This document shows, piece by piece, positions 10,461 to 53,525 of a stretch of 64,000 bases of DNA. Each line of letters begins with the position of its first letter. The stretch's first letter is position 1. Source of the stretch: Moritella sp. 5 (GTDB lineage: Bacteria; Pseudomonadota; Gammaproteobacteria; Enterobacterales; Moritellaceae); contig NZ_CP056122.1 in NCBI RefSeq assembly GCF_018219455.1, positions 2,418,001-2,482,000 on the forward strand. The letters are read 5' to 3'. Below the pieces are notes generated by a model. The model was not told the origin of the DNA. It ran no database searches and worked only from the letters and a program-made list of their open reading frames with translations. The position numbers and the translations under genes are program-made.

Positions 10461-10482
10461 AGAATCAATTAGAATTGAACGC

Positions 10483-10520
10483 GATAAAAAGGTGCATACA
10501 TGATGCACCTTTTTATTATC
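10483..10520. terminator. Bidirectional terminator between cobB and potD
   Basis: GATAAAAAGGTGCA / TGCACCTTTTTATTATC inverted repeat around a 7-nt loop, with A-run and T-run on either side, between two convergent genes. Confidence 0.9.
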
Positions 10521-10541
10521 ACTTCTAAGCTGCGTTTAACC

Positions 10542-11576
10542 TTACAGGTTTTGCGCTTTTAGTTTTTCGTAATAGCGTTCGTAAATGATATTTGCTTCAC
10601 CAACATCTGAGTGGAACTCACCGTTTTCAATTGTTTCTGCATCAGGGAATACAATCTTGTTTTCAGTAAACTCTTTAGGTAATAATTTTTTAGCTGCCTT
10701 GTTAGGCGTTGGGTAACCAATCTCTAAAGCAACTTCAGCAGCAACTTCTGGGCGTAGTAAGAAGTCGATAAGCTTGTGTACGGCATCAACGTTCTTGGCA
10801 TTCTTAGGAATTGCTAAGCTATCCATCCAAAATACAGCGCCTTCTTTTGGATATACCATCGTAATATCACTATCTTCTTGTTGGGCCATGTACGTGCTGC
10901 CGTTCCAAATCATACCAAACTCTACTTCGCCTGCTATATAAGGGTTAGCTGGTGTGTCAGAGTTAAATACAAGCACGTTAGGCATTAGTTTTTTCAATAA
11001 TTCATATGCTTGTGCTAATTCTTCTTTGTCTTGTGTATTAGCTGAGTGACCTTGTATTTTTAATGCCATGTGGAAAATTTCACGAGCATCGTCAGTCAAT
11101 AGTAACTGACCTTTCCATTTCGGGTCCCACAAGTCTTCCCAGCTTGTTATTGACGATAATTCAATATTTGCAGTGTTGACACCAATACCCGTTGCACCCC
11201 AGATATATGGAATACTATAACGGTTACCTAAATCATATTCTTTGTTTAACAAAGACGGTTCTAGGTTACCAAAATTAGTTAGCTTCTTATGATCTATTTC
11301 TTGAAGCATACCTTCTTTCTTCATTTTACTAATGAAGTAAGTTGACGGTACAACAAGATCATAACCGTTCTTATCATACGTTTTTAATTTGGCGTACATT
11401 GACTCGTTAGATTCATACGTTGAATAAACGACTTTAATACCTGTTTCTTCAGTGAAACGAGCTAACAAACCTGGCGGAATATATTCAGACCAGTTATAAA
11501 AATTAATGGTTGTTGCGTAAGCTGAGCTACTAAAAAGTAGGGCAGTGGCAATACACTTTATGGTTGATTTAAACAT
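10542..11576 (-). CDS. potD: Spermidine/putrescine ABC transporter substrate-binding protein
   Basis: Periplasmic binding protein of the polyamine importer. The 344-aa protein has a signal peptide (about residues 1-21, ending SSSAYA), then INFYNWSEYIPPGLL typical of PotD/PotF, and conserved DLVVPSTYFISKM and WKGQLLLTDDAREIF regions. It is the last gene of potABCD and is separated from potC by an intercistronic hairpin, which may allow a different expression level for the binding protein. Confidence 0.95.
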   Translation of the reverse strand: MFKSTIKCIATALLFSSSAYATTINFYNWSEYIPPGLLARFTEETGIKVVYSTYESNESMYAKLKTYDKNGYDLVVPSTYFISKMKKEGMLQEIDHKKLTNFGNLEPSLLNKEYDLGNRYSIPYIWGATGIGVNTANIELSSITSWEDLWDPKWKGQLLLTDDAREIFHMALKIQGHSANTQDKEELAQAYELLKKLMPNVLVFNSDTPANPYIAGEVEFGMIWNGSTYMAQQEDSDITMVYPKEGAVFWMDSLAIPKNAKNVDAVHKLIDFLLRPEVAAEVALEIGYPTPNKAAKKLLPKEFTENKIVFPDAETIENGEFHSDVGEANIIYERYYEKLKAQNL

Positions 11577-11639
11577 AGTAATTTGACATCTTCTTTTATT
11601 GAATAGTAAACAATTGCAGCATAAGGCTGCATAACAAGT

Positions 11640-11667
11640 AAAAGTAGATTCTAGAGAATCTACTTTT
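11640..11667 (-). terminator. Intercistronic hairpin between potC and potD
   Basis: A perfect 13-bp inverted repeat (AAAAGTAGATTCT, AGAATCTACTTTT, 2-nt spacer) overlaps the potC stop codon; four T follow on the minus strand. It looks like a partial terminator or an RNA-processing/stabilising hairpin. Confidence 0.6.
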
Positions 11668-12430
11668 CACCTTTATTAATAAGGGCTGCGGCAATAACAA
11701 ACGAAATCGATATTAAAATCATAACTGTCGCCAATGCATTAACCTCGGGCGAAACGCCCACTTTAACCATCGAATATATCTTCAATGGGAGTACTTCAAA
11801 ACTAGGGCCTGTCACGAACGAGCTCACAATTACATCATCAAGCGATAAGGTAAATGATAATAGCCAACTCGCAATAATGGCGGGCTTAGCAATGGGTAAA
11901 ATAATGCGTTTAAAGATGGTTGCTTCGCTTGCGCCTAAATCTTTACCGGCTTCTAATATCGCGTTATCAAAATTACTTAAACGACTGTAAACCGTGATGA
12001 CAACAAACGGGATGCAAAAGGTTATGTGAGCGATAAGTAAGGTCACAAAGCCAAGATCTAAACCAAGTATAATAAATAAAGATAATAATGAAATCGCCAT
12101 CACAATATCGGGAGACATCATCACAACAAAGAGTAGCCCAGATATAAACTTTTTACCTTTAAACTTATGCTTAAATAAAGCGACGGCGCCCAATGTACCT
12201 ATAACGACGGCAATTGATGATGCAAAAACAGCAATTGTTATCGAGTTAAATGCGGCTTGGAGTAATGTATCGTTACTCCAAAGTAGTTCATACCACTTTG
12301 TTGTCAATCCTTTCCACTTTAAGCCGTATTTAGAGGCATTAAACGAATTTCCGATTAAAATAAAGATGGGTGTATACAAGTATATATATACTAATAGCAA
12401 CAAGACTTTGGATATATGACGTTTAAGCAT
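11660..12430 (-). CDS. potC: Spermidine/putrescine ABC transporter permease PotC
   Basis: The 256-aa inner-membrane permease has six hydrophobic segments and the EAA motif that contacts the ATPase (EAGKDLGASEATIFKRIILPI). The conserved SLDDVIVSSFVTGP segment is typical of PotC. Its start overlaps the end of potB by 8 bp, consistent with one operon. Confidence 0.94.
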   Translation of the reverse strand: MLKRHISKVLLLLVYIYLYTPIFILIGNSFNASKYGLKWKGLTTKWYELLWSNDTLLQAAFNSITIAVFASSIAVVIGTLGAVALFKHKFKGKKFISGLLFVVMMSPDIVMAISLLSLFIILGLDLGFVTLLIAHITFCIPFVVITVYSRLSNFDNAILEAGKDLGASEATIFKRIILPIAKPAIIASWLLSFTLSLDDVIVSSFVTGPSFEVLPLKIYSMVKVGVSPEVNALATVMILISISFVIAAALINKGEK

Positions 12431-13280
12431 TGTTACCTCTGTTTTTAATCGATTTACCTACCTTATAATAGAAAAACAGTAAGCCCGCCATGAACACTGT
12501 TAAAGTGATACTTGCGGCAGAACCAAACGGCCAATCTCGAATATTCAAAAATTGTGTTTTGATTGTATTACCAATCAGTAAGTTTTTAGCTCCCCCGACC
12601 AGGTCTGCAATATAAAACATCCCCATAGCAGGTAAAAATACTAATAACATACCTGCGATAATCCCCGGCATCGTCAAAGGTAATTCAACTTTTAAAAAAG
12701 TAGTAAACTTAGAAGCACCAAGATCTTTCGCAGCTTCAATCAAGCTTTTATCTATTTTTTCAATACTCGAATACAATGGTAAAATCATAAATGGCAGTAA
12801 TATATAGACCAAAGCAAAAATGACGGCAAATTCGGTGTACATCAGCTTTAACGGCTTATCAATGATATGTAAATTGAGTAATAAAGCGTTAAGTAGACCC
12901 TTTTTAGCTAATAAGATCTTAATTCCGTATGTTCTAATTAATGAATTTGTCCAAAACGGGACAATAATTAGGAATAACAACACAGGTCGTACTTTTTTAG
13001 GTAACAGGGCTATCGTATAAGCAAAAGGGTAGCCAATAATTAAGCAGACAAATGTTGCTATACTCGCCATATATACTGAATGACTTAATACCTTGAAGTA
13101 CAAGGGATCAAATAAACGCACATAGTTGTCTAACGTAAAAGTTAAGCTTATTAAGTTTGCATCATCACGTGTTAAAAAACTGGTGACGATAATCATCAAA
13201 TTAGGTACTAAAACGAAGACACTTAGCCAAACAAGTAACAGTCCAATAGAGAAACGCTTAAAAAGCGACGAATTAATCAT
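12423..13280 (-). CDS. potB: Spermidine/putrescine ABC transporter permease PotB
   Basis: The 285-aa permease partner of PotC has about six membrane segments, [17 protein letters not shown] (PotB-typical) and the EAA loop ([21 protein letters not shown]). It overlaps potA by 8 bp at its start and potC by 8 bp at its end. Confidence 0.95.
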
Positions 13281-14376
13281 TTGTTAAGATAACCTCCCAG
13301 CTTTCTACCCATGAAACAGCCACTTTTTGTCCGAGGCTATGGTCAAAATCGGGATCATCTTCATCAAAGAATTCACTGATTTGTACTCTTTCACCTGAAT
13401 CTAAGCGGATAACCGAATCTAGCGTCATCCCTTTGTAATTCCGTTCGATAATATGCCCAGTAATCTGTGCTGACGTAGCTTTAGCGTCTATTTCTTTAAT
13501 TCTTAAATCTTCTGGTCGTAATAAAATATTGATTTGCTGATCGAGTTCTAATGATAGTGCTGTTGAAATCGTATACTGACAGCCATGTACACTGGCAATG
13601 TATTTATCTTCACCTAAGCATGATTCAATAGCACCAGGGAAGATATTAATTTCACCAATAAACTTAGCCACGAATAAGTTTATTGGCGTTTCATATATTT
13701 CTCGAGGTGTACCTATCTGTTCAACATTCCCGTTGTTCATTACAATAATACGATCAGACATTGTTAATGCTTCTTCTTGATCGTGCGTAACGAATATAAA
13801 GGTAATGTTTAACTTTCGTTGCAACATTTTAAGCTCGTTCTGCATTTCCTTACGCAGCTTATAATCTAATGCGCTTAACGATTCATCCAATAGCAGTACT
13901 TTTGGCTGGTTAATTACAGCGCGTGCAATTGCAACACGTTGCTGTTGACCACCTGAAAGTTGGGCTGGCTTGCGATCTTTAAAATCAGTTAACTTAACGA
14001 TAGCGAGAATATCTTCAACACGTTGTTTGATTTCTGATTCCGCAATTTTTTTCATACGCAAACCAAAGGCTATATTTTCAAACACCGTCATGTGAGGGAA
14101 CAGAGCATAGCCTTGAAAAACGGTATTGGTATTACGCTTTTCTGCCGGGACATCTGTGATACATGTATTTTCAAGGTATACATCACCGCTATCAAGCGTT
14201 TCTAATCCAGCAAGCACACGCAATGCAGTTGTTTTGCCACAGCCAGAAGGGCCTAAAATTGTGACAAATTCACCATCATAAATATCTAATGTTAAATCAT
14301 TAATAATAAGTTTGTTATCAAATGACTTTTTTGCGTTAGCAAGTCTAATGATTGAGTTTTGATTTTTATTAAGCAT
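13273..14376 (-). CDS. potA: Spermidine/putrescine ABC transporter ATP-binding protein PotA
   Basis: ATPase of the polyamine importer. It has Walker [10 protein letters not shown], the signature LSGGQQQR, Walker B VLLLDE, the switch His in FVTHDQEEA, and a C-terminal TOBE regulatory domain (LLRPEDLRI). The frame is open up to 14454, but homology and a TAGG ribosome site support the ATG at 14376 (367 aa, beginning LNKNQNS). First gene of the operon. Confidence 0.95.
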
Positions 14377-41772: not shown

Positions 41773-41800
41773 ATTTAACATAATATACATTATGCGCAGT
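41773..41800 (-). other. dif: Chromosomal dif site (XerC/XerD recombination site)
   Basis: Read on the minus strand: XerC arm ACTGCGCATAA, 6-bp centre TGTATA, XerD arm TTATGTTAAAT. From memory this differs from the E. coli dif only in the first two bases of the XerC arm. Chromosome dimers are resolved here at division, so the site marks the replication terminus. The satellite array starts inside it: sequence shared with the repeat units begins at 41789, at the edge of the XerC arm, as expected for XerC-mediated insertion. Confidence 0.92.
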
Positions 41801-41897
41801 GATGTAATAAGTCCCAGATAGAGATGTCAGGTTTGTAATATCGTTATTGATATCAAAACCCTGTCCCTGGTACTCCAATTTGATATCAAAAACCCGT

Positions 41898-41956
41898 GCG
41901 CTACGTGAAATCTGAAAAACTTTACCAGTATTGTTACTGTAGATTTCACACAGCGC
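41898..41956. repeat. Conserved satellite hairpin, copy 1
   Basis: GCGCTACGTGAAATCT (41898-41913) and AGATTTCACACAGCGC (41941-41956) pair over 14 of 16 positions around a 27-nt loop. Same element at 46126-46184 and 50362-50420, with a weaker version at 50561-50619. It lies just after the replication operon. Candidate replication origin, packaging signal or terminator; not determined. Confidence 0.75.
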
Positions 41957-41961
41957 GATGT

Positions 41962-42240
41962 CTATTTAGATGCTTGATTACTAATGTTTTTATCTGACTT
42001 CAAGAATTCCAGTTCTTTCAAGTATGCGAATATTTTTGCATAACCAATGAAAGCTTGTTCATCACCATCAGTAAAATCTTGTGATAATAATTCTTCATGT
42101 AAAAATATTATTGATTCTTTAATATCATCGAACTCGATAGAAATTTCTTTGCTCGCTGGATAACATTGTTCACCAGAACGATAAAATAAAGCGCTGTCTG
42201 TCAGATGATTATTTGCGATAGTTAATTCATGTTCCGTCAT
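41962..42240 (-). CDS. Satellite small protein of unknown function (92 aa), copy 1
   Basis: I do not recognise it. It is a mostly helical, acidic 92-aa protein (EISIEFDDIKESIIFLHEELL). It starts one base after the preceding gene's stop, so it is the last gene of the rstA-like operon. By position it could correspond to RstC of RS1, but no sequence similarity is claimed. A decayed copy of its 3' half remains at about 50430-50560. Confidence 0.7.
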   Translation of the reverse strand: MTEHELTIANNHLTDSALFYRSGEQCYPASKEISIEFDDIKESIIFLHEELLSQDFTDGDEQAFIGYAKIFAYLKELEFLKSDKNISNQASK

Positions 42241-42241
42241 A

Positions 42242-42604
42242 TTATTTCACCGTGTGTGTTGGACAATTTTCTTGAGCTGCAACGGCTCGATTCTTACAAC
42301 GTTTACCTAATTTAGTTTTAGATTCGCATCGTGAAACGTCTTCTTGGCCAACGTATTTATAATTAAATGGTTCTTGTTCACTAAGTCGTTCTTGTTTTTC
42401 GTAGATCTCAATTTTAAAGTAATTCCAGTTTGAATCTGGCTGACCATGCGACATTATTTGTGCTGAACCATCATCATTTTCTCTAATCCACATGCCCGTC
42501 TGATTTTCAATTCTTGGTGCTAGTAATCTAGTATTTACATTTTCTTCAACGTGACCAGCTAACGAACCGCCAGTAAATCGAATTGTTGTTTTTCCATGAG
42601 GCAT
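42242..42604 (-). CDS. Satellite protein with C-terminal Cys/His cluster (120 aa), copy 1
   Basis: Function unknown. The last 30 residues contain CESKTKLGKRCKNRA...NCPTHT, a C-x6-C-x9-C-x2-H pattern that looks like a small metal-binding finger. The N-terminal part is beta-rich and basic (HGKTTIRFTGG). It lies 12 bp after the RstB-like gene, in the replication operon, so a nucleic-acid-binding role in satellite replication is a reasonable guess. Confidence 0.7.
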   Translation of the reverse strand: MPHGKTTIRFTGGSLAGHVEENVNTRLLAPRIENQTGMWIRENDDGSAQIMSHGQPDSNWNYFKIEIYEKQERLSEQEPFNYKYVGQEDVSRCESKTKLGKRCKNRAVAAQENCPTHTVK

Positions 42605-42616
42605 CTTAATATCCTT

Positions 42617-42898
42617 TTATAGATCGAGTTCAATTGGCTTAATGGTTAATCCAAAACGTTTTAGTTCTAGGCCACCGTAGTTATTAATCGCAAAACTTGA
42701 AGCATCAACTGAGTATGTTCCGGCACCATATGGCAGTTGACCGTCTTGAACAGATAGCTTCATTTCAACTGGGAATTTACCGCCTAAGTGAGCATATGCA
42801 ATTTGCTCGTTAAAGCTTCGACCCGGTTTACCGTCTTTAGGTGGTAAAGTTCGAGTGATTAGATCAACATTTTCAGGGAATATTTCTATGTGTAACAT
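42617..42898 (-). CDS. rstB: RstB-like single-stranded DNA-binding protein, copy 1
   Basis: The 93-aa protein matches inoviral ssDNA-binding/RstB-type proteins: GKPGRSFNEQIAYAHLGGKFP, then YGAGTYSVDASSFAINNYGGLELKRFG-like strands typical of the gene V fold. Such proteins coat the phage single strand and in CTXphi are required for integration. It lies between the replication initiator and the 120-aa protein with 11- and 12-bp gaps. Confidence 0.82.
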   Translation of the reverse strand: MLHIEIFPENVDLITRTLPPKDGKPGRSFNEQIAYAHLGGKFPVEMKLSVQDGQLPYGAGTYSVDASSFAINNYGGLELKRFGLTIKPIELDL

Positions 42899-42909
42899 GT
42901 GACAGCCTC

Positions 42910-44052
42910 CTAGGCATAAGCTTTAAATGGTAATATATTTGATTGTGCAACAACTGGTAAGTGGTACCAATCAGGTACGTTTAAATGTTTTATTTCAATC
43001 ACTTGTGAGCGCTTTAGTGTCGGGCATATACGGCTGACATCGAATTGCTGACCGATATCAATACCGATCACTTTTAAGCGTGCTTTATGTTCATAAAACT
43101 GAGAATTTGATAACATATTTCTTAAATCAGTACCGTGCTGCCACATTGTAAAGTAGCTCATGGTCGTGTTTGCTTGTCGCAATGTTTTAACCGCTGAGGC
43201 TTCAAGTAGTTGATGTGCAATGGATTGATGTTCATCGTGTGAAATATGTATTGTTTTCATAGCTTTATCGATCTCTTGAAGATGTGGTATGAAGTCTTTT
43301 TCTGAGACTGCACCGTAAAATTGTAAGTTATATCGTTTTAATAATGATTGGCGTAAGCTGTGTTCTTCACGAACTACGCCTTTTTGTTCACAATAGTTAA
43401 TTAAATCATGTATATAACTAAGTCTTTCTGGCTGGATTACGTCTCTTTTTCGTTCATCTTTTTGTAAATGCCGTTTAAGCTCGACTGCTTTATTATAAAG
43501 TTTGGTCATATTCCAAGTTGAAGCTTCACCCCAGTTGCAGGTATTTCCATCGGGGTAAAGCTTAGGTTTGCGCCCTCGCCCAATTTGCATTGATGACATT
43601 CCACGGATAAATGATTGCTCATTTCCCTTGCCTACTTCATGGTTAACCGTCCAATCAATTGCTGTAATTTCAGCACCATTACCGACCAGTTGAGATGCTT
43701 TACCTTCTGGTGTTTGACGATGGTACATTTTGGTATTTTTTGTGAATGCTGGCAGTCCATGTTTAGCCAGAATATGGTTAAAAACTTCGACACATTCATC
43801 TAATGTTTTCAATCCAAAAAGATTGTCCATACGCTGCCAACGTGAAGGATTTCCTTCAACTCGAACTCTTACACCATCACATCGGATCGTTAGTTTCGTT
43901 GAATGTGAGCCTTCAATGATCTTTTGATTTACAGATGTAGGTAATTTCTCACCCGTTTCTAGATCGATTTTTTCAATAACATGACGACCTACAAGGGGTA
44001 ACCCACCTTGTAAATGATCTTGCTGTATGAAAAGTCGGTCTATAAAAAACAA
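42910..44052 (-). CDS. rstA: RstA-like rolling-circle replication initiator, copy 1
   Basis: The 380-aa protein resembles RstA of CTXphi and related Vibrio inoviruses (phage replication protein gene II/X type): FFIDRLFIQQDHLQGG start, EGSHSTKLTIRCDG, EGNPSRWQRMDNLFGL and YFTMWQHGTDLRNML. It should nick the plus-strand origin and start rolling-circle replication. The start codon is TTG at 44052, with AGGA about ten bases upstream; no in-frame ATG fits better. Divergent from the repressor gene, sharing the operator region. Confidence 0.88.
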   Translation of the reverse strand: MFFIDRLFIQQDHLQGGLPLVGRHVIEKIDLETGEKLPTSVNQKIIEGSHSTKLTIRCDGVRVRVEGNPSRWQRMDNLFGLKTLDECVEVFNHILAKHGLPAFTKNTKMYHRQTPEGKASQLVGNGAEITAIDWTVNHEVGKGNEQSFIRGMSSMQIGRGRKPKLYPDGNTCNWGEASTWNMTKLYNKAVELKRHLQKDERKRDVIQPERLSYIHDLINYCEQKGVVREEHSLRQSLLKRYNLQFYGAVSEKDFIPHLQEIDKAMKTIHISHDEHQSIAHQLLEASAVKTLRQANTTMSYFTMWQHGTDLRNMLSNSQFYEHKARLKVIGIDIGQQFDVSRICPTLKRSQVIEIKHLNVPDWYHLPVVAQSNILPFKAYA

Positions 44053-44134
44053 TGTATGGAAATCCTGTCAATGCAAATGTTGGTATATATTAATGTACCT
44101 TATAGTAAACATTTATCACATGCAATGATTGTGG

Positions 44135-44164
44135 TTTATATTTATGGTGTATAGTGAATATAAA
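44135..44164. promoter_or_regulatory. Candidate repressor operator between the rstA-like and rstR-like genes, copy 1
   Basis: TTTATATT / AATATAAA inverted repeat with 14-bp spacing, in the 135-bp divergent promoter region. The same site is at 48363-48392. Confidence 0.55.
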
Positions 44165-44187
44165 TATGTATCAATAAGGAGTTTTAG

Positions 44188-44559
44188 GTGATTGGTTCTG
44201 TACTTAAGGAAGCTAGAGAGGCTATAAATCTATCTCAAAATAAAATAGCTGAAGCTGTTGGAGTAACTAAGCAAACCTACTTAAAGTGGGAAAATGATGT
44301 TACCGAACCTAAAGCTTCTCAAGTCACAAAGCTAGCCAAAGCATTGAATATTTCAGAAACTGAAATCTGCCAAGGTAAGCTAAATAGTAAAATGCCCCTA
44401 GAGAAGTTTATTGTTCAACTGGCTCAAATAGGAGCAGGTTCGAGTCTTGAAGCACTTAGAATTTGGGAGCAAATTCCAGACCATGGGCAATTTCTTCTAA
44501 GCCTTGTTGATGGCGATATTTCTAAAGATAAAGAAGATTTGATAGACGCCTTGAGTTAG
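44188..44559 (+). CDS. RstR-like HTH repressor, copy 1
   Basis: The 123-aa protein has a Cro/CI-type HTH in the first 60 residues (LKEAREAINLSQNKIAEAVG, VTKQTYLKWENDVTEP) and an unrelated C-terminal half. Start is GTG at 44188, seven bases after AAGGAG. Its divergent position next to the rstA-like gene is that of rstR in CTXphi, where the repressor controls the rstA promoter and superinfection immunity. Role here is inferred from that layout. Confidence 0.85.
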   Translation: MIGSVLKEAREAINLSQNKIAEAVGVTKQTYLKWENDVTEPKASQVTKLAKALNISETEICQGKLNSKMPLEKFIVQLAQIGAGSSLEALRIWEQIPDHGQFLLSLVDGDISKDKEDLIDALS

Positions 44560-45157
44560 TCGATAGTCCGGAATTCCGGAGTTAGTTTGGGTGTAACAGG
44601 AACCCAAACTTAAAAACCCCCTTTTTCGCTCATCGCTCGATTGTCGAATAAGAGACATATTATGCGAATCAATCCCCCGCTGCGCGGAGTCTCAACACGC
44701 ATAACATGCCTGTATAAAGCGTTCGTGCATAAAGCATTATCTAGGTGGGGAAAATCAGTAAAGTGATCATAGCGAAGCATTGACGCACAATCTTAGCCAA
44801 AAGATTGGTTTAGCAGAAAGATGGGTAACGGCTACGCCTATGTAACAGATAACCTCTGTCACATGTAACAGCTATTCATTAACTATAAACAGAGTAAATA
44901 TTACTAGGTAATAAATACTTTAATGATGTACGGGTATATTTATATCCGTGTTTTCTCGTTGCTCAGCCTTCGCCCTCGAAAGTCACGTCATAAATAAACC
45001 TTGAATCAAATTTGGAATTTGATAGTTAAACATAAGCTTTTGATATTACCGTATAAAAATAATAAAACACTGTATATATTCTGAATATTAGACAGAGTAC
45101 TCTTTGATCTTCTCATAAATTCTAAAACTATTAATCATATAAGGAATTATTGGCTAA
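44560..45157. other. Satellite intergenic region with hairpins, copy 1
   Basis: About 600 bp with no supported gene. It holds the palindrome TCCGGAATTCCGGA (44569-44582), a hairpin AGTTTGGGT / ACCCAAACT (about 44584-44610) that could terminate the repressor transcript, and a GAATCAAATTT...TTGATATTAC block shared with element 3 just before its cargo gene. A replication origin may be here but is not identified. Confidence 0.6.
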
Positions 45158-45916
45158 ATGAAATTAACAATAATAGACCCCGAATTAAACCTTCATCAAT
45201 TACCAGCCTTTATAATTACAGCCTTTAGTGGAATTATACTTGCTGCCATACTTACTGCCCAAGTATGGCCGTTAGCACCACAGGTAATAAGTGATTACAC
45301 CACTATTAATTATGTTGCATTTGAAATTCTTAAATTACCATGTGCAATTATAGCCGTAACTCTTTCTTTATTAATTATCATAGGAACAATGCATCGTTCA
45401 GCTCAGACTGTAAGGCAAATTAAAATAGCTACTAAACAAAATGACATTTCAAATTATTACAAGCACTTAGATGAGTTTAGAACTTATGTTTTAGCTAATG
45501 AAAAGCTTATAAAAGCATATGAAAATAATTCAATAAAACGAATACATGACAAAATATGGGCCAATTACCTTAATAATAATTACAACATCGAAATCATAAG
45601 TGAAATTCAAGATAAGTATGAAAATATATTCAATGTAATTATACAGGAGGAACACACACTCCAAGACTGTGAAGAGTGGGAAGATTCTTTAAATAGAATG
45701 ATTGAACTGTTTTGTTTCGATCATTATAAAAGCCCTAAAGCTATTGATGGCCCTAATCATCTATCTAATTATACCAGAGATATATCTAAACTTTTTATCG
45801 TAGTCTTGTCGTTCGAATTAGATGTGAAATCTGAAATAAAGCTAAAACAAGTGAATAAAATTGCTGCACACATAGCGAGCAAAGGCGATATTAAAACGTG
45901 GTTAAGAGCAAAATAA
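45158..45916 (+). CDS. Satellite cargo membrane protein (252 aa), copy 1
   Basis: I do not recognise the family. Two membrane helices lie near the N-terminus (AFIITAFSGIILAAILTA; LPCAIIAVTLSLLIIIGT) and a helical cytoplasmic domain follows, rich in Asn, Lys and Glu, with Cys-Glu-Trp-Glu near residue 171. It sits between the repressor and the attP hairpin, the slot that holds different membrane proteins in the neighbouring elements. A role in immunity or superinfection exclusion is a guess. AAGGA lies 12 bases before the ATG. Confidence 0.7.
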   Translation: MKLTIIDPELNLHQLPAFIITAFSGIILAAILTAQVWPLAPQVISDYTTINYVAFEILKLPCAIIAVTLSLLIIIGTMHRSAQTVRQIKIATKQNDISNYYKHLDEFRTYVLANEKLIKAYENNSIKRIHDKIWANYLNNNYNIEIISEIQDKYENIFNVIIQEEHTLQDCEEWEDSLNRMIELFCFDHYKSPKAIDGPNHLSNYTRDISKLFIVVLSFELDVKSEIKLKQVNKIAAHIASKGDIKTWLRAK

Positions 45917-45920
45917 TACC

Positions 45921-46028
45921 CTTCGCATAATGCGGATTATGTGTAAATACCACAAGTGGCCTGCTTGCCTGTTCCAGTGTCGCAAGCAGGTAAATATTCA
46001 ACATAATCACGTTGCTATTATGCGCAGT
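45921..46028. other. attP: Satellite attP hairpin, copy 1/copy 2 junction
   Basis: Two dif-like sites face each other: CTTCGCATAA-TGCGGA-TTATGTGTAAAT at 45921 onward and, inverted, the arms ACATAA...ATTATGCGCAGT ending at 46028. Nested complements (GCATAAT 45925-45931 with ATTATGC 46017-46023; CCTGCTTGC 45960-45968 with GCAAGCAGG 45982-45990) allow the single strand to fold into one long forked hairpin, as described for attP1/attP2 of CTXphi. Confidence 0.85.
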
Positions 46029-46125
46029 GATGTAATAAGTCCCAGATAGAGATGTCAGGTTTGTAATATCGTTATTGATATCAAAACCCTGTCCCTGGTA
46101 CTCCAATTTGATATCAAAAACCCGT

Positions 46126-46184
46126 GCGCTACGTGAAATCTGAAAAACTTTACCAGTATTGTTACTGTAGATTTCACACAGCGC
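46126..46184. repeat. Conserved satellite hairpin, copy 2
   Basis: Same GCGCTACGTGAAATCT / AGATTTCACACAGCGC hairpin as at 41898-41956. Confidence 0.75.
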
Positions 46185-46189
46185 GATGT

Positions 46190-46468
46190 CTATTTAGATG
46201 CTTGATTACTAATGTTTTTATCTGACTTCAAGAATTCCAGTTCTTTCAAGTATGCGAATATTTTTGCATAACCAATGAAAGCTTGTTCATCACCATCAGT
46301 AAAATCTTGTGATAATAATTCTTCATGTAAAAATATTATTGATTCTTTAATATCATCGAACTCGATAGAAATTTCTTTGCTCGCTGGATAACATTGTTCA
46401 CCAGAACGATAAAATAAAGCGCTGTCTGTCAGATGATTATTTGCGATAGTTAATTCATGTTCCGTCAT
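46190..46468 (-). CDS. Satellite small protein of unknown function (92 aa), copy 2
   Basis: Identical in sequence to the protein encoded at 41962-42240; see that entry. Last gene of the copy-2 replication operon. Confidence 0.7.
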   Translation of the reverse strand: MTEHELTIANNHLTDSALFYRSGEQCYPASKEISIEFDDIKESIIFLHEELLSQDFTDGDEQAFIGYAKIFAYLKELEFLKSDKNISNQASK

Positions 46469-46469
46469 A

Positions 46470-46832
46470 TTATTTCACCGTGTGTGTTGGACAATTTTCT
46501 TGAGCTGCAACGGCTCGATTCTTACAACGTTTACCTAATTTAGTTTTAGATTCGCATCGTGAAACGTCTTCTTGGCCAACGTATTTATAATTAAATGGTT
46601 CTTGTTCACTAAGTCGTTCTTGTTTTTCGTAGATCTCAATTTTAAAGTAATTCCAGTTTGAATCTGGCTGACCATGCGACATTATTTGTGCTGAACCATC
46701 ATCATTTTCTCTAATCCACATGCCCGTCTGATTTTCAATTCTTGGTGCTAGTAATCTAGTATTTACATTTTCTTCAACGTGACCAGCTAACGAACCGCCA
46801 GTAAATCGAATTGTTGTTTTTCCATGAGGCAT
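46470..46832 (-). CDS. Satellite protein with C-terminal Cys/His cluster (120 aa), copy 2
   Basis: Identical to the protein at 42242-42604, including the C-x6-C-x9-C-x2-H pattern near the C-terminus. Confidence 0.7.
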   Translation of the reverse strand: MPHGKTTIRFTGGSLAGHVEENVNTRLLAPRIENQTGMWIRENDDGSAQIMSHGQPDSNWNYFKIEIYEKQERLSEQEPFNYKYVGQEDVSRCESKTKLGKRCKNRAVAAQENCPTHTVK

Positions 46833-46844
46833 CTTAATATCCTT

Positions 46845-47126
46845 TTATAGATCGAGTTCAATTGGCTTAATGGTTAATCCAAAACGTTTTAGTTCTAGGC
46901 CACCGTAGTTATTAATCGCAAAACTTGAAGCATCAACTGAGTATGTTCCGGCACCATATGGCAGTTGACCGTCTTGAACAGATAGCTTCATTTCAACTGG
47001 GAATTTACCGCCTAAGTGAGCATATGCAATTTGCTCGTTAAAGCTTCGACCCGGTTTACCGTCTTTAGGTGGTAAAGTTCGAGTGATTAGATCAACATTT
47101 TCAGGGAATATTTCTATGTGTAACAT
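46845..47126 (-). CDS. rstB: RstB-like single-stranded DNA-binding protein, copy 2
   Basis: Identical to the protein at 42617-42898; second gene of the copy-2 replication operon. Confidence 0.82.
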   Translation of the reverse strand: MLHIEIFPENVDLITRTLPPKDGKPGRSFNEQIAYAHLGGKFPVEMKLSVQDGQLPYGAGTYSVDASSFAINNYGGLELKRFGLTIKPIELDL

Positions 47127-47137
47127 GTGACAGCCTC

Positions 47138-48280
47138 CTAGGCATAAGCTTTAAATGGTAATATATTTGATTGTGCAACAACTGGTAAGTGGTACCAATC
47201 AGGTACGTTTAAATGTTTTATTTCAATCACTTGTGAGCGCTTTAGTGTCGGGCATATACGGCTGACATCGAATTGCTGACCGATATCAATACCGATCACT
47301 TTTAAGCGTGCTTTATGTTCATAAAACTGAGAATTTGATAACATATTTCTTAAATCAGTACCGTGCTGCCACATTGTAAAGTAGCTCATGGTCGTGTTTG
47401 CTTGTCGCAATGTTTTAACCGCTGAGGCTTCAAGTAGTTGATGTGCAATGGATTGATGTTCATCGTGTGAAATATGTATTGTTTTCATAGCTTTATCGAT
47501 CTCTTGAAGATGTGGTATGAAGTCTTTTTCTGAGACTGCACCGTAAAATTGTAAGTTATATCGTTTTAATAATGATTGGCGTAAGCTGTGTTCTTCACGA
47601 ACTACGCCTTTTTGTTCACAATAGTTAATTAAATCATGTATATAACTAAGTCTTTCTGGCTGGATTACGTCTCTTTTTCGTTCATCTTTTTGTAAATGCC
47701 GTTTAAGCTCGACTGCTTTATTATAAAGTTTGGTCATATTCCAAGTTGAAGCTTCACCCCAGTTGCAGGTATTTCCATCGGGGTAAAGCTTAGGTTTGCG
47801 CCCTCGCCCAATTTGCATTGATGACATTCCACGGATAAATGATTGCTCATTTCCCTTGCCTACTTCATGGTTAACCGTCCAATCAATTGCTGTAATTTCA
47901 GCACCATTACCGACCAGTTGAGATGCTTTACCTTCTGGTGTTTGACGATGGTACATTTTGGTATTTTTTGTGAATGCTGGCAGTCCATGTTTAGCCAGAA
48001 TATGGTTAAAAACTTCGACACATTCATCTAATGTTTTCAATCCAAAAAGATTGTCCATACGCTGCCAACGTGAAGGATTTCCTTCAACTCGAACTCTTAC
48101 ACCATCACATCGGATCGTTAGTTTCGTTGAATGTGAGCCTTCAATGATCTTTTGATTTACAGATGTAGGTAATTTCTCACCCGTTTCTAGATCGATTTTT
48201 TCAATAACATGACGACCTACAAGGGGTAACCCACCTTGTAAATGATCTTGCTGTATGAAAAGTCGGTCTATAAAAAACAA
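47138..48280 (-). CDS. rstA: RstA-like rolling-circle replication initiator, copy 2
   Basis: Identical to the protein at 42910-44052, with the same TTG start. In a tandem array either copy could nick both origins and release a unit-length circle between them. Confidence 0.88.
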   Translation of the reverse strand: MFFIDRLFIQQDHLQGGLPLVGRHVIEKIDLETGEKLPTSVNQKIIEGSHSTKLTIRCDGVRVRVEGNPSRWQRMDNLFGLKTLDECVEVFNHILAKHGLPAFTKNTKMYHRQTPEGKASQLVGNGAEITAIDWTVNHEVGKGNEQSFIRGMSSMQIGRGRKPKLYPDGNTCNWGEASTWNMTKLYNKAVELKRHLQKDERKRDVIQPERLSYIHDLINYCEQKGVVREEHSLRQSLLKRYNLQFYGAVSEKDFIPHLQEIDKAMKTIHISHDEHQSIAHQLLEASAVKTLRQANTTMSYFTMWQHGTDLRNMLSNSQFYEHKARLKVIGIDIGQQFDVSRICPTLKRSQVIEIKHLNVPDWYHLPVVAQSNILPFKAYA

Positions 48281-48362
48281 TGTATGGAAATCCTGTCAAT
48301 GCAAATGTTGGTATATATTAATGTACCTTATAGTAAACATTTATCACATGCAATGATTGTGG

Positions 48363-48392
48363 TTTATATTTATGGTGTATAGTGAATATAAA
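48363..48392. promoter_or_regulatory. Candidate repressor operator, copy 2
   Basis: Same TTTATATT / AATATAAA inverted repeat as at 44135-44164. Confidence 0.55.
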
Positions 48393-48415
48393 TATGTATC
48401 AATAAGGAGTTTTAG

Positions 48416-48787
48416 GTGATTGGTTCTGTACTTAAGGAAGCTAGAGAGGCTATAAATCTATCTCAAAATAAAATAGCTGAAGCTGTTGGAGTAACTAAGC
48501 AAACCTACTTAAAGTGGGAAAATGATGTTACCGAACCTAAAGCTTCTCAAGTCACAAAGCTAGCCAAAGCATTGAATATTTCAGAAACTGAAATCTGCCA
48601 AGGTAAGCTAAATAGTAAAATGCCCCTAGAGAAGTTTATTGTTCAACTGGCTCAAATAGGAGCAGGTTCGAGTCTTGAAGCACTTAGAATTTGGGAGCAA
48701 ATTCCAGACCATGGGCAATTTCTTCTAAGCCTTGTTGATGGCGATATTTCTAAAGATAAAGAAGATTTGATAGACGCCTTGAGTTAG
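48416..48787 (+). CDS. RstR-like HTH repressor, copy 2
   Basis: Identical to the protein at 44188-44559, with the same GTG start and AAGGAG site. Two identical repressor genes double the dosage for immunity. Confidence 0.85.
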   Translation: MIGSVLKEAREAINLSQNKIAEAVGVTKQTYLKWENDVTEPKASQVTKLAKALNISETEICQGKLNSKMPLEKFIVQLAQIGAGSSLEALRIWEQIPDHGQFLLSLVDGDISKDKEDLIDALS

Positions 48788-49385
48788 TCGATAGTCCGGA
48801 ATTCCGGAGTTAGTTTGGGTGTAACAGGAACCCAAACTTAAAAACCCCCTTTTTCGCTCATCGCTCGATTGTCGAATAAGAGACATATTATGCGAATCAA
48901 TCCCCCGCTGCGCGGAGTCTCAACACGCATAACATGCCTGTATAAAGCGTTCGTGCATAAAGCATTATCTAGGTGGGGAAAATCAGTAAAGTGATCATAG
49001 CGAAGCATTGACGCACAATCTTAGCCAAAAGATTGGTTTAGCAGAAAGATGGGTAACGGCTACGCCTATGTAACAGATAACCTCTGTCACATGTAACAGC
49101 TATTCATTAACTATAAACAGAGTAAATATTACTAGGTAATAAATACTTTAATGATGTACGGGTATATTTATATCCGTGTTTTCTCGTTGCTCAGCCTTCG
49201 CCCTCGAAAGTCACGTCATAAATAAACCTTGAATCAAATTTGGAATTTGATAGTTAAACATAAGCTTTTGATATTACCGTATAAAAATAATAAAACACTG
49301 TATATATTCTGAATATTAGACAGAGTACTCTTTGATCTTCTCATAAATTCTAAAACTATTAATCATATAAGGAATTATTGGCTAA
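48788..49385. other. Satellite intergenic region with hairpins, copy 2
   Basis: Same content as 44560-45157; no gene supported. Confidence 0.6.
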
Positions 49386-50144
49386 ATGAAATTAACAATA
49401 ATAGACCCCGAATTAAACCTTCATCAATTACCAGCCTTTATAATTACAGCCTTTAGTGGAATTATACTTGCTGCCATACTTACTGCCCAAGTATGGCCGT
49501 TAGCACCACAGGTAATAAGTGATTACACCACTATTAATTATGTTGCATTTGAAATTCTTAAATTACCATGTGCAATTATAGCCGTAACTCTTTCTTTATT
49601 AATTATCATAGGAACAATGCATCGTTCAGCTCAGACTGTAAGGCAAATTAAAATAGCTACTAAACAAAATGACATTTCAAATTATTACAAGCACTTAGAT
49701 GAGTTTAGAACTTATGTTTTAGCTAATGAAAAGCTTATAAAAGCATATGAAAATAATTCAATAAAACGAATACATGACAAAATATGGGCCAATTACCTTA
49801 ATAATAATTACAACATCGAAATCATAAGTGAAATTCAAGATAAGTATGAAAATATATTCAATGTAATTATACAGGAGGAACACACACTCCAAGACTGTGA
49901 AGAGTGGGAAGATTCTTTAAATAGAATGATTGAACTGTTTTGTTTCGATCATTATAAAAGCCCTAAAGCTATTGATGGCCCTAATCATCTATCTAATTAT
50001 ACCAGAGATATATCTAAACTTTTTATCGTAGTCTTGTCGTTCGAATTAGATGTGAAATCTGAAATAAAGCTAAAACAAGTGAATAAAATTGCTGCACACA
50101 TAGCGAGCAAAGGCGATATTAAAACGTGGTTAAGAGCAAAATAA
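49386..50144 (+). CDS. Satellite cargo membrane protein (252 aa), copy 2
   Basis: Identical to the protein at 45158-45916: two N-terminal membrane helices and a helical cytoplasmic domain of unknown function. Confidence 0.7.
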   Translation: MKLTIIDPELNLHQLPAFIITAFSGIILAAILTAQVWPLAPQVISDYTTINYVAFEILKLPCAIIAVTLSLLIIIGTMHRSAQTVRQIKIATKQNDISNYYKHLDEFRTYVLANEKLIKAYENNSIKRIHDKIWANYLNNNYNIEIISEIQDKYENIFNVIIQEEHTLQDCEEWEDSLNRMIELFCFDHYKSPKAIDGPNHLSNYTRDISKLFIVVLSFELDVKSEIKLKQVNKIAAHIASKGDIKTWLRAK

Positions 50145-50148
50145 TACC

Positions 50149-50256
50149 CTTCGCATAATGCGGATTATGTGTAAATACCACAAGTGGCCTGCTTGCCTGT
50201 TCCAGTGTCGCAAGCAGGTAAATATTCAACATAATCACGTTGCTATTATGCGCAGT
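50149..50256. other. attP: Satellite attP hairpin at the copy 2/element 3 junction
   Basis: Same forked hairpin as at 45921-46028. The sequence beyond ATTATGCGCAGTG diverges from copies 1 and 2, marking the start of element 3. Confidence 0.85.
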
Positions 50257-50361
50257 GTTGTGTTAAACCCAATAGAGGTGTCAGGATTGGCACCGTTAGA
50301 AATGTCATGTTCATTAGCCATTATTCTGTTCAAACCATTCTATTTACTACAAAATTACCGT

Positions 50362-50420
50362 GCGCTACGTGAAATCTGAAATGTTTTGCCAGTATTGTTA
50401 CAGCAGATTTCACACAGCGC
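50362..50420. repeat. Conserved satellite hairpin, element 3
   Basis: GCGCTACGTGAAATCT (50362-50377) and AGATTTCACACAGCGC (50405-50420) are unchanged from copies 1 and 2, although the loop and surroundings have diverged. Retention suggests function in cis. Confidence 0.75.
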
Positions 50421-50429
50421 GCATGTTAT

Positions 50430-50560
50430 TTTCGGGTTTGATTATTAAAATTACCTAGCTGACTTTAAATGTTCGAGTTCTTTTGAGCACGTGAATATTT
50501 TTGCATAGCCATCAAGTTTCGTTCATCATCGTCATCAATATCTTGTGATAACAATAACAC
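50430..50560 (-). pseudogene. Remnant of the satellite 92-aa gene
   Basis: Recognisable matches to 41962-42095, such as GAATATTTTTGCATA and ATCTTGTGATAA, with indels that break the frame and no start codon region. Confidence 0.6.
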
Positions 50561-50619
50561 ACGCTACGTAAAATCTAAGTTAGCTTTCCTTGTGATTACC
50601 AACGTGATTTACACAGCGC
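50561..50619. repeat. Second, diverged hairpin in element 3
   Basis: ACGCTACGTAAAATCT and GATTTACACAGCGC pair much like the conserved satellite hairpin; it may come from another lost satellite end. Confidence 0.55.
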
Positions 50620-50937
50620 TCATTATAGATTTGTATTATCAATAAATAGATTCTGTGATCACTTGTCTGTTTTTGATTTAGGAATCGATTAGCTAAATTT
50701 GGATTTACAGTTCTTAACCTGGTAATAATTTTTGCTGACCATTAAATATGATTTTGTTTATCAGGCATCATTCAATGCGAATTCGTATTAGATCAATATG
50801 ACTGAACCAATCTAATTCTAAATATACTAATTGGAATTTAAGATGCTATTTTGAATCGATCCTACGTTAATTTTACTAACTAGGATGTTACTTACTGATT
50901 CAGATTTCACGTAGCGTCACGTAAAATAGCTATGCTA

Positions 50938-51115
50938 TTGATTAAACTATTAATAATAACGCTAAAGTCTCGATTTTGCGGAACGTCAATTAACACTGTG
51001 TTTATATACAGTTGAATATCTACCCCCGTAAAACTCTGACTTTTAATTATAGTTTAGAAATATTTGGTACAAGCTCCCTATCCTTTTTTATGCTGATAAG
51101 ACGTTTAAATGTTAA
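50938..51115. repeat. Diverged repeat shared by elements 3 and 4 (copy A)
   Basis: About 175 bp with long matching stretches to 52795-52975, e.g. AACACTGTGTTTATATACAG and CCCTATCCTTTTTTA. Estimated identity by eye is 80-85 percent. Confidence 0.7.
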
Positions 51116-51513
51116 GCTCGCACATAAGAATGGTTGTATATAATGATTCGTTTTTGGTGCATTATTGGCGTTAATCATGCCTAATGGTTGATTTATGACT
51201 CATTAAATAAGCTTGTATTTAATGCGCCATTTTAGGTTCATTATAACCACTTTGCGGTATAATGAGTATGTAGAACACATAACTAAGCCGAATCAAATTT
51301 AGAACCTTATGGCGTAATTTAGGGCTTTGATATTACTGTATAAGAGCAAAGACACTCTTTAGATTCTAATTTGGATTAAAATAGTTAACCTTGAGAAATC
51401 CAGCGATCTTGGCAAAACCGTATTGCTGCAGAGAGTTAACCCCCGTAAGACAGTAAGGGGGCTTCGCCTGATATTTCAGTTTCCGCTATAAATGCACAAT
51501 AAGGGAATCATAT

Positions 51514-51876
51514 ATGAGCATTATATATATTTTATTCGGTTTTTTAATTTTAGTGTTGGTAGCAATCTATATGGTATTAAATAGTCTTCTGTCTCAACTT
51601 CAAAACAGTGGAAACACTATTAATGCGTATGGTGAAGAATACATGCAACAAAGGAACCTTGTTGAACGGCAAAGTGAAGCGCTAGAATTAATTGCTGATA
51701 ATATGGAAGAAGTAAAAAGAGATGTGAAAGAGATGAAGGATGTTGCCGATATTTTCTATAAATATAAGCTACCTGATAGAGAAGAACGTGAATTTATAGA
51801 CAAGATGTTAATTCAAGAAGAAGTTTTTGATGGTGTGAACAAAGCAATGTATAAAAACAAAAAAACCACTGTATAA
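51514..51876 (+). CDS. Element 3 cargo: membrane-anchored coiled-coil protein (120 aa)
   Basis: Family unknown. One N-terminal membrane helix (IIYILFGFLILVLVAIYMVL) is followed by a charged coiled-coil stretch (about residues 45-85: RQSEALELIADNMEEVKRDV) and a short tail. Its leader shares a block with the leader of the 252-aa cargo gene in copies 1 and 2, so it occupies the same slot. AAGGGA lies nine bases before the ATG. Confidence 0.7.
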   Translation: MSIIYILFGFLILVLVAIYMVLNSLLSQLQNSGNTINAYGEEYMQQRNLVERQSEALELIADNMEEVKRDVKEMKDVADIFYKYKLPDREEREFIDKMLIQEEVFDGVNKAMYKNKKTTV

Positions 51877-51953
51877 AGTTTCAAAATGAAACAAGAGTAC
51901 ACTATTAAAGATAGTGTACTCTTTAAAATGACTAGGAAATCAAAATAGACACT

Positions 51954-52514
51954 TCATCGTACGGCATTTATATTCGAAATTATTAACTCTTCAACAGGTT
52001 CAACAGGTTCAACAGGTTCAACAGGTTCAACAGGTTCAACAGGTTCAACAGGTTCAACAGGTTCAACAGGTTCAACAGGTTCAACAGGTTCAACAGGTTC
52101 AGAAGACCCCGTGGAGTTGAATTCAGAAACACTCTTAAGCTCATTGAATAGCTTAGCTGATTCAATAGTCCGTTTTTGTATTACCATTATTGCTGATTTT
52201 TTAATATCAATAACCCCTTCCATGGCAACTGTCATTTGAGCTATTTCACCAAAAGAGTCCTTAGCCATAGCTAAAGATCGAATCACATCTAAATCTCCCT
52301 CTCCATTCTTATTATACTTCATGTACACATAGCACTGATTATCAAATGCCACCTGCTTCTGAAGAGCTGTGCTGTTAATGCTTGCCAAAATGAATTGTAA
52401 CTCTCGCTGACGCTGACGATTAGCTTTAGCTACGCCAAATTGATAGATGGAAATCAAAGTACCAACGACACCAAAAAAAGTACCAACAACACCAAACCAA
52501 AACGATAAATCCAT
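51954..52514 (-). CDS. Element 3 cargo: membrane-anchored protein with Pro-Val-Glu repeats (186 aa)
   Basis: Family unknown. ATG 52514 sits eight bases after GGAG; the ATG at 52532 would place that site inside the gene. It has an N-terminal membrane helix (FWFGVVGTFFGVVGTLISIY), a basic stretch (ANRQRQREL), a helical domain, then twelve tandem Pro-Val-Glu triplets encoded by 9-bp repeats, and a short tail. Convergent with the 120-aa gene, 77 bp away. The repeat tract probably forms a stiff acidic spacer. Confidence 0.7.
   Translation of the reverse strand: MDLSFWFGVVGTFFGVVGTLISIYQFGVAKANRQRQRELQFILASINSTALQKQVAFDNQCYVYMKYNKNGEGDLDVIRSLAMAKDSFGEIAQMTVAMEGVIDIKKSAIMVIQKRTIESAKLFNELKSVSEFNSTGSSEPVEPVEPVEPVEPVEPVEPVEPVEPVEPVEPVEPVEELIISNINAVR
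51990..52097. repeat. Twelve tandem copies of a 9-bp repeat
   Basis: TTCAACAGG repeated 12 times without change. It is in frame within the 186-aa gene (Pro-Val-Glu on the minus strand), so copy-number changes by slippage would not disrupt the frame. Confidence 0.95.
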
Positions 52515-52595
52515 AAGTAATACTCCAATCATTAATGTATACGAGACATAATAACATAATGCTACTAAGCTTATGATTGAAATAGATTATACGCT

Positions 52596-52706
52596 CTTCG
52601 CATAATGCGGATTATGTATAAATACCACTACTTGGCCTGTCAGCCTGTTCCAGTATTGCAAACGGATTCTTATTCAACATAATCACGTTTCTATATATGC
52701 GCAGTG
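52596..52706. other. attP: Diverged satellite attP hairpin at the element 3/element 4 junction
   Basis: CTTCGCATAA-TGCGGA-TTATGTATAAAT faces inverted arms ending TATATGCGCAGT. The inner stem is less perfect than in copies 1 and 2 (GGCCTG...CAAACGG), so folding may be weaker. Confidence 0.75.
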
Positions 52707-52794
52707 TTGTAATAAGCCCAGATAGAGGTGTCAGGATTGCCACCGTTAGAAATGTCATGTTTTCAGACTTAACGTAGTATTATGTGAAACGTCT

Positions 52795-52975
52795 ATACTA
52801 TTGATTTTATTGTTAATAATAATTTCAAAGTCTCGATTTTACGGAGCCTCAACTAACACTGTGTTTATATACAGTTAAATATCTCCCCCCGTAAAATCAT
52901 GACTTTTAACTGTAGTTTAGAAACGTTTGTTACAAGACCCCTATCCTTTTTTACTGCTAGCAAGATGTTTCAGGC
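52795..52975. repeat. Diverged repeat shared by elements 3 and 4 (copy B)
   Basis: Counterpart of 50938-51115; the CTGTGTTTATATACAG and CCCTATCCTTTTTTA stretches are shared. Confidence 0.7.
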
Positions 52976-53024
52976 TGGCTATAATGTAATATTAAATTAT
53001 GACAGTGTATTGGAGTTAATATTA

Positions 53025-53525
53025 ATGGACGTTCAAGAATTCATATCTAATGTAGGTGGACAAACCGCCATTTTTATAAGCTTGCTAGCTGCGCTCTGGG
53101 CTATATGTTCAAATATAATAACCAATAAAAGAATAAAGACTCACAAAAGTAAGTTAGAAGAGTTAACTCGTATTAAAAAAGACAGTGATTACCGAAAACT
53201 GGAACTATATAAAACAGTCTTAAAACCATTAACAGACCTAACAGCCAAAATTCCTGAAGAAGGAAAATTAAGTCTTGATGATATAAGCCAATTTGATAAA
53301 GAACGACTAGAGGTCTCTGCACACTTAGCTTTATTTGCTTCAAGTGATGTATTTGATAAGTTCACCGAATTAGTCGATTACATCCATAACTCGCAAGTAC
53401 AATTTAGTACTATCGATGAATTTGAATTTGAAGTGTTCCGCGCCAAAATGCTTAAATTACTTAGTGAAATGAGACGGGACATAGGCTTTCACAAGGATGA
53501 AATTACTTACAAAGGCTATAGATAG
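53025..53525 (+). CDS. Element 4 cargo: membrane-anchored helical protein (166 aa)
   Basis: Family unknown. ATG 53025 follows GGAG by nine bases; the longer frame from 52899 would run through the repeat block and is rejected. One membrane helix (TAIFISLLAALWAICSNII) leads into a basic coiled-coil-like stretch (KRIKTHKSKLEELTRIKKDS) and a helical domain ending in a Lys-rich tail. The layout resembles the other cargo proteins although sequences differ. Confidence 0.7.
   Translation: MDVQEFISNVGGQTAIFISLLAALWAICSNIITNKRIKTHKSKLEELTRIKKDSDYRKLELYKTVLKPLTDLTAKIPEEGKLSLDDISQFDKERLEVSAHLALFASSDVFDKFTELVDYIHNSQVQFSTIDEFEFEVFRAKMLKLLSEMRRDIGFHKDEITYKGYR

Follow-up and report, generated by a model that had tools for sequence, protein, structure and literature searches.

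What kind of element forms the perfect tandem repeat beside the dif site of Moritella sp. 5, and how might it replicate and spread without coat genes of its own? The repeat lies in a stretch of 64,000 nucleotides (positions 2,418,001 to 2,482,000 of contig NZ_CP056122.1, assembly GCF_018219455.1), which is called the window here and whose numbering is used throughout. It consists of two head-to-tail units of 4228 bp (Table 1), which are identical letter for letter, and the genome, a single contig of 4,991,674 bp, contains no further full-length match to the unit. On its left, the array abuts a canonical 28-bp dif site on the minus strand (ACTGCGCATAATGTATATTATGTTAAAT), the only one in the genome when up to three mismatches to a 26-base pattern are allowed. 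A 301-bp query taken from the left flank found matches in 48 of 59 genomes, its own included, and the dif part was covered in 46. The location at dif, the regeneration of dif at one edge and the att junctions at each unit edge place the units among the Xer-integrated inovirus satellites. An initial annotation of the sequence had described a perfect tandem pair offset by 4228 bp at dif, and both statements agree with the string comparison and the search of the whole contig. We consider it about 80% probable, judging from the sequence, that the units are a prophage-like satellite of filamentous phages, i.e., an integrating mobile element exploiting Xer (IMEX), which resembles RS1 and TLC and is probably helper-dependent.

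Each unit carries an inovirus-type replication module without recognised virion or assembly genes. None of its six proteins matched a virion family in Pfam or PHROGs, three of them (92, 120 and 252 amino acids) being without an assigned function, and the earlier statement that virion genes are lacking holds in this form. The divergent repressor that had been predicted is present as a helix-turn-helix (HTH) gene on the plus strand opposite rep; it reaches 47.7 bits against the NCBIfam RstR family, whose cut-off is 80. The proteins that had been termed RstA-like and RstB-like deserve these names for their function only, since by family they are a G2P/X-type rolling-circle initiator (Rep) and a gpV-type single-stranded DNA-binding protein (SSB), which belongs to PF02303 and not to the CTX_RstB family PF07459, and in this they are unlike the proteins of RS1. 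The SSB and the 120- and 92-amino-acid proteins are 98–99% identical to those of the sister species G001. No RstC-like antirepressor was found in the window unit, as no phrog_6488 match was listed for its proteins. The 92-amino-acid protein was rejected as a candidate RstC by hhalign against an alignment of RstC-like proteins (probability 0.5%), and so were the 66- to 76-amino-acid proteins of the related stretches L045, L046 and L010 (probability 1.3%, no alignment with the RstC-like set). The phrog_6488 family ("anti-repressor"), of which RstC is presumably the founder, is represented in four scanned relatives (L009 of Vibrio splendidus, L012, L050 and L053), and an RstC-like relative is also encoded on a plasmid of V. 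tapetis.

Table 1. Features of the dif-associated array and of the decayed elements to its right (window coordinates).
Feature	Position	Further copy	Strand	Basis or remark
Chromosomal dif (XerC arm, 6-bp centre TGTATA, XerD arm), restored at left edge of array	41773–41800		−	sequence, flank query
Satellite unit, copy 1	41789–46016		− (Rep-coding, presumed viral strand)	exact 4228-bp repeat
Satellite unit, copy 2, identical	46017–50244		−	exact 4228-bp repeat
92-aa protein, no function assigned	41962–42240	46190–46468	−	no Pfam/PHROG/NCBIfam match; 98% identical in G001
120-aa protein, no function assigned, C-terminus with cysteines	42242–42604	46470–46832	−	99% identical in G001
93-aa gpV-type SSB	42617–42898	46845–47126	−	PF02303 E=6e-22; phrog_1199 E=3e-27
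380-aa G2P/X-type rolling-circle initiator Rep, TTG start	42910–44052	47138–48280	−	PF05144+PF05155; phrog_702 E=1e-96; TIGR01629
123-aa divergent HTH repressor	44188–44559	48416–48787	+	best NCBIfam match RstR family, below cut-off
Double hairpin, probable ori(+)	44567–44609	48795–48837	.	covariation, satellite-specific pattern, PE002 match, L092 duplication break
252-aa cargo, N-terminal hydrophobic segments, variable slot between intergenic region and attP2	45158–45916	49386–50144	+	
attP2, dif-like, inverted, 6-bp centre	45920–45947	50148–50175	+	
attP1, dif-like, 11-bp centre	45996–46028	50224–50256 (right end)	−	good XerC and XerD arms; folds with attP2
Decayed older satellite	50245–52693 (limits approximate)		.	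unit-start and 92-aa-gene remnants, no rep
Membrane-protein-like genes in first decayed satellite	51514–51876; 51954–52532		+; −	
attP2/attP1 remnants of first decayed satellite	near 52597–52703			
Second decayed satellite remnant	52694–53525 (limits approximate)		.	membrane-protein-like gene 52899–53525 (+)

Among 394 genomes of the order, 20 encode a Rep that matches at E ≤ 1e-40; 13 of these Reps are close (59–100% identity) and seven distant (at most 40%). The close-Rep genomes fall into four family codes (f1, f5, f16 and f21). Named relatives occur in V. splendidus, Shewanella gelidii, a Psychrobiaceae metagenome-assembled genome and the V. tapetis plasmid, and a truncated copy in Photobacterium pectinilyticum; the satellites had initially been placed outside Vibrio, which the copies in V. 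splendidus (L009) and on the V. tapetis plasmid contradict. Five of the 13 close-Rep genomes hold tandem pairs, namely this genome, G212 (99.6% identity over 2308 bp, then divergent), G310 (one mismatch in 3194), G369 and G258 (both 100%). In G154, copies lie at several contig ends, and the remaining close-Rep genomes have single copies or copies cut by contig ends. The perfect identity of the two Moritella copies is also what a duplication introduced by assembly would give; however, the genome is a single contig and the same layout recurs in the four other genomes at spacings of 3184, 3323, 3321 and 3404 bp, which makes such an artefact highly improbable.

A Zot/pI match was found in one of the 13 close-Rep genomes (G315, on the same contig) compared with all seven distant-Rep genomes (Fisher p = 1e-4); since the Zot profile detects the pI protein of phage PE002, a miss elsewhere is informative. 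The 43 accessory open reading frames chosen from the relatives matched 24 PHROG families (E ≤ 1e-5) and 22 Pfam families (E ≤ 0.0024), none of which is named as an inovirus virion family and some of which lack a known function; for looser scans, 25 of 82 and 25 of 32 families were listed. In a Rep tree of 23 rows, a branch with support 97/98 separates the 17 satellite Reps from six phage Reps. A tree of 30 rows (21 satellite, nine phage), which includes two very long-branched phage Reps and omits the satellite Rep of L049, does not recover the satellite clade, which counts against the satellite reading, although a single clade is not rejected by the approximately unbiased test (p = 0.30).

Each unit carries two dif-like sites, attP1 with an 11-bp centre (TAGCAACGTGA) and, 48 bp away, the inverted attP2. 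When folded as single-stranded DNA, attP1 pairs with attP2 (−23.6 kcal/mol, z = −4.6), and none of 200 shuffled sequences folded as well. Nineteen family sites were folded in segments of 114–189 nt, which were picked per site; 17 of them pair 7–9 of the nine XerC-arm positions with bases lying over 60 nt downstream, and 14 have z ≤ −3. The 19 sites are not independent, as some are near-identical and L048 and L100 do not differ over 170 nt. Fourteen sites folded earlier had shown the XerC arm paired downstream in 11 cases, among them the decayed site at 52703 with 6 of 9 positions. This site, L011 and the contig-cut L051 site 51 were omitted from the 19-site fold, as was L044. Against a general rule stand L094 and L096, in which the arm fold was missed among the 19 sites, and L011 and both L051 sites, one of them cut by a contig end, in which it was missed among the 14; the L051 site at 4012 pairs with a shorter segment in the 19-site fold (z = −1.2). 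According to one study (PMC4246890), attP1 of the CTX class has a 12-bp centre and the inverted attP2 one of 5–7 bp, with about 90 bp between the sites, and the double-stranded attP of TLC resembles dif in its XerC arm and centre but has a degenerate XerD arm. By its sequence, the window attP belongs to the CTX class and not to the TLC class. It shares with the attP(+) of CTXphi-class IMEX the two inverted sites, whose centre is long in one and 6 bp in the other, and the folding as single-stranded DNA, but differs in the distance between the sites and in the lack of CTX genes. Such an attP fits the initial proposal that the element is released from tandem prophages by copying, without excision.

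The 3' end of the repressor gene carries a palindrome followed by a stem-loop, a double hairpin that is probably ori(+). It is present in the satellite stretches that reach this far and was missed in L011 (truncated rep) and in L047 and L057 (contig ends). In the Vibrio PE002 phage records it is 95% identical and overlaps the 3' end of the repressor gene as well. In an alignment of 18 sequences, which include two phages and one plasmid, 97.4% of 234 cells are paired and 14 cells are changed on both sides, compared with 0–2 in slid controls. One of five covariation measures, that of further pair types, did not beat shuffles (118 of 500) and counts against this reading. A search pattern drawn from the aligned hairpins themselves matched 12 of the 394 genomes, all of them among the 13 with a close Rep, and the reversed control matched none; the thirteenth, G386, has a variant hairpin. 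For CTX, the ori(+) nick is described in PMC4439123 as falling between a G and a T of the apical loop, in the second of the hairpins in the rstR region. In the viral contig L092 (IMGVR_UViG_2916734906_000002, 8446–13297), the satellite is duplicated with a period of 2424 bp, and no attP was found between the copies. The joint lies inside the loop of the corresponding hairpin, at the point between GGGGTTAC and TGTTACACCCC, and connects to a different place, with TGTT common to both; this single event matches what an initiator nick within TGTT and misplaced rejoining would leave. The breakpoint may thus be a natural clue to the nick site.

To the right of the array lie two decayed satellites. 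The host centre and XerD arm are kept at one edge, which restores dif and would place the newest unit beside it; the decayed units at 50245–53525 would accordingly be older. Gene 51954–52532 of the first one contains a run of perfect 9-bp repeats (about 51990 to 52100), which code for Val-Glu-Pro and whose number is likely to vary. All nine sister genomes whose dif region was read carry sequence next to dif that resembles the unit and ranges from short fragments to roughly 1 kb, and the tenth, G001, has no dif within three mismatches. In G001 (L043, G001:C1:2562000-2580000, near 9270–10710), the dif-proximal edge of the satellite is followed by an apparent insertion sequence, and dif may have been lost or replaced there. 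Among eleven genomes of the genus, Rep (E ≤ 1e-40) is found only in this genome and in G001. Repeated rounds of colonisation and loss seem to have taken place at the dif site. This wealth of decayed copies, together with the lack of a Zot/pI match in the genome, would suit an immobile remnant, i.e., a once complete inovirus stripped of its coat genes within this lineage and recently duplicated by RecA as a dead prophage. We regard a remnant as quite unlikely: the unit still has an intact Rep, SSB, repressor, ori hairpin and attP, the three proteins shared with G001 are strongly conserved while the cargo region differs, and independent recent deletions would not produce close Reps that group together in the 23-row tree and occur in 13 of 394 genomes, of which 12 gave no Zot match.

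If the units are a satellite, a helper has to be sought, and here several observations weigh against helper dependence. The profile search found no Zot/pI match in this genome, so that the helper expected by the initial annotation, if any, is not seen here. Furthermore, satellite carriers are not enriched for Zot relative to the rest of the sample (1 of 13 compared with 48 of 381, p = 1), so that Zot enrichment lends no support to resident helpers, and helpers are not usually resident. Within the genus, the Zot regions of G049 and G157 were rejected as helpers, as they lie away from dif and share only a weak 34-bp match with the unit. Relatives on IMG/VR contigs, which were retrieved with Rep or with the ori pattern, do stand next to inoviruses. 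Six of seven distinct satellite-Rep contigs also carry a pI-like gene on the stretches examined (in one case a weak match at E = 4e-6); in L094, the seventh, there are other phage-like genes. Since IMG/VR gathers its contigs as viral, this adjacency is biased. Ten phage proteins from L092, L093, L096 and L097 were checked against PHROG, and the neighbouring inoviruses are apparently complete.

In the two contigs compared, satellite and neighbour phage share a nearly identical attP block, as had been expected of a helper with the same attP. The block agrees at 435 of 437 nt in L092; in L093, 293 of the initial 300 nt agree, and 367 when the comparison is extended to 400. When ten different elements were compared, 24 of the 25 blast matches between attP blocks have 71–92% identity over 36–229 nt; the exception is L048 and L100 (100% over 170 nt), and the window and L045 matched no other. 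The neighbour Rep of L093 belongs to phrog_453 and the satellite Rep to phrog_702 like that of the window, so that the attP block can go with the neighbour even where Rep differs. The phage Rep of L092 is likewise assigned to phrog_702, with phrog_8855 as the better match. A candidate packaging hairpin (TATGTCA..TGACATA) occurs in L009, L053, L055, L091–L093 and L099, in satellite and phage parts alike, and was not found in window positions 41–53 kb. The earlier classification as an RS1/TLC-like helper-dependent satellite stands for a dif-integrated, tandem, inovirus-type satellite without recognised virion genes; its helper dependence, like copy number in the cell and packaging, is what we infer from these data.

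If the unit were instead a small plasmid that integrates and spreads independently of phages, e.g., on conjugative plasmids or by transformation, the lack of Zot in 12 of 13 carriers would also be accounted for. Such a plasmid would fit the conjugative plasmid of V. tapetis (L080, NZ_LT960613.1 1–8855) as well, in which a repressor-rep-ssb module is accompanied by the ori hairpin and an RstC-like gene; this may be a satellite that was taken up as a replicon. The gpV-type SSB and the attP block that relatives have in common with adjacent inoviruses, however, point to packaging, and movement without phage is considered unlikely.

For the satellite, the following cycle can be proposed. The single-stranded viral strand would fold so that the inverted attP1 and attP2 form a dif-like hairpin, which host XerC would join to dif beside the XerC arm, thereby restoring dif at one edge, as the junctions and the precedent of CTXphi suggest. 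The head-to-tail pair could then arise by another round of integration or by unequal exchange. Once the repressor is relieved, Rep would nick the conserved hairpin in one copy, and replication that reaches the same hairpin in the next copy would release a unit-length circle without excision, whose single strand SSB would coat. As coat genes are lacking, spread would need the virion proteins of an inovirus, which is probably met only at times. The variable slot would carry membrane-protein cargo.

RS1, the satellite of CTXphi in V. cholerae, has the gene order repressor, initiator and ssDNA-binding protein, as in the window unit, and shares its rst genes with its helper. Like RS1, the unit has no virion genes, an inverted CTX-type attP pair at dif and a tandem array, and its relatives sit beside helper-like inoviruses, the four with an anti-repressor gene corresponding to RS1 with RstC. 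Unlike RS1, it has cargo of its own and no RstC-like gene, no helper is seen in the genome, and the L093 satellite shares only the attP block with its neighbour phage. TLC shows tandem duplication and has a Cri-type Rep; none of the database hits listed was named as a TLC record. The VC1465 family of Xer activation factors, which we take to be linked to TLC, is matched by the HTH protein of the unit with 18.8 bits only (E = 0.0013, cut-off 70). As described in PMC4246890, TLC (TLCphi) likewise is an autonomous replication module at dif without morphogenesis genes, and by that description the unit is set apart from it by two good attP1 arms, the 11-bp centre and the second inverted site. Three VC1465-family genes that score below the cut-off (E 3e-7 to 3e-15) occur in L011 (9258–9629), L091 (5706–6074) and L100 (172–564); they adjoin att-like sites with 7- to 8-bp centres near satellites or phages and could mark TLC-like elements in the same arrays. 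The Vibrio phages 10N.239.311 PE002 (Tubulavirales) share with the unit the order of divergent repressor, Rep (47% identity) and SSB as well as the ori hairpin, but they have annotated coat genes, a 490-amino-acid protein, DUF2523 and Zot/pI, none of which is in the satellite, and their SSB matches CTX_RstB, which that of the window does not.

To our knowledge, inovirus satellites are known mainly from V. cholerae, with RS1 and TLC. By its title, a report by Schmid et al. from 2024 concerns a plasmid that is a satellite of an inovirus. The search of the published literature, which covered titles and the openings of abstracts, found no description of the present family there, which does not amount to absence from print. 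The CTX-type folded attP, the covarying ori hairpin, the distribution over 13 of 394 genomes and the attP block common to satellites and adjacent inoviruses are new here. It is a tentative suggestion that these elements form a long-lived coatless lineage with its own Rep and ori, which persists in at least four families of the order as tandem dif arrays, changes helpers via attP and the adjoining block of about 300 bp, and exchanges membrane-protein genes, the array being the replicating form and not a by-product. The diagnostic ori hairpin and the folded attP offer a simple handle for finding more such satellites, as searches based on Zot/pI would have missed 12 of the 13 close-Rep genomes. 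They also make it testable how satellites share attachment sequence with helpers of different Rep and whether tandem dif arrays are needed for release.

The cargo slot is the variable part of the unit: G001 aligns at 88% over 41805–45011 but not over the cargo. The 252-amino-acid protein had no informative match in Pfam, NCBIfam, PADLOC or the PDB; a TcdA/TcdB match in Pfam (18.4 bits, cut-off 23.6) was taken as chance, and a single-sequence AlphaFold model was poor (predicted local distance difference test score, pLDDT, of 44). A scan of viral contigs found no cargo relatives. Among the 394 genomes, five have a cargo match at E ≤ 1e-6, including this one. The N-terminal half of the cargo is similar (27–33% identity) to proteins encoded close to the ends of eight phage records of Vibrio cyclitrophicus, 13.9–15.1 kb in length, and a ninth match, from Klebsiella, covers 26%. 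In PMC11630473, filamentous and tailless prophages of marine Vibrio are described with variable border loci, often beside a regulator, that are enriched in defence genes; by analogy, a role in phage exclusion or defence is a reasonable guess for the cargo, and nothing more.

Another array of small elements is perhaps present in L099 (IMGVR_UViG_2609460203_000002, 2022–10580), in which two pieces of 3.7 kb are 100% identical and lie 4.85 kb apart, and a 522-amino-acid gene stands beside a PE002-like SSB gene and an HTH gene.

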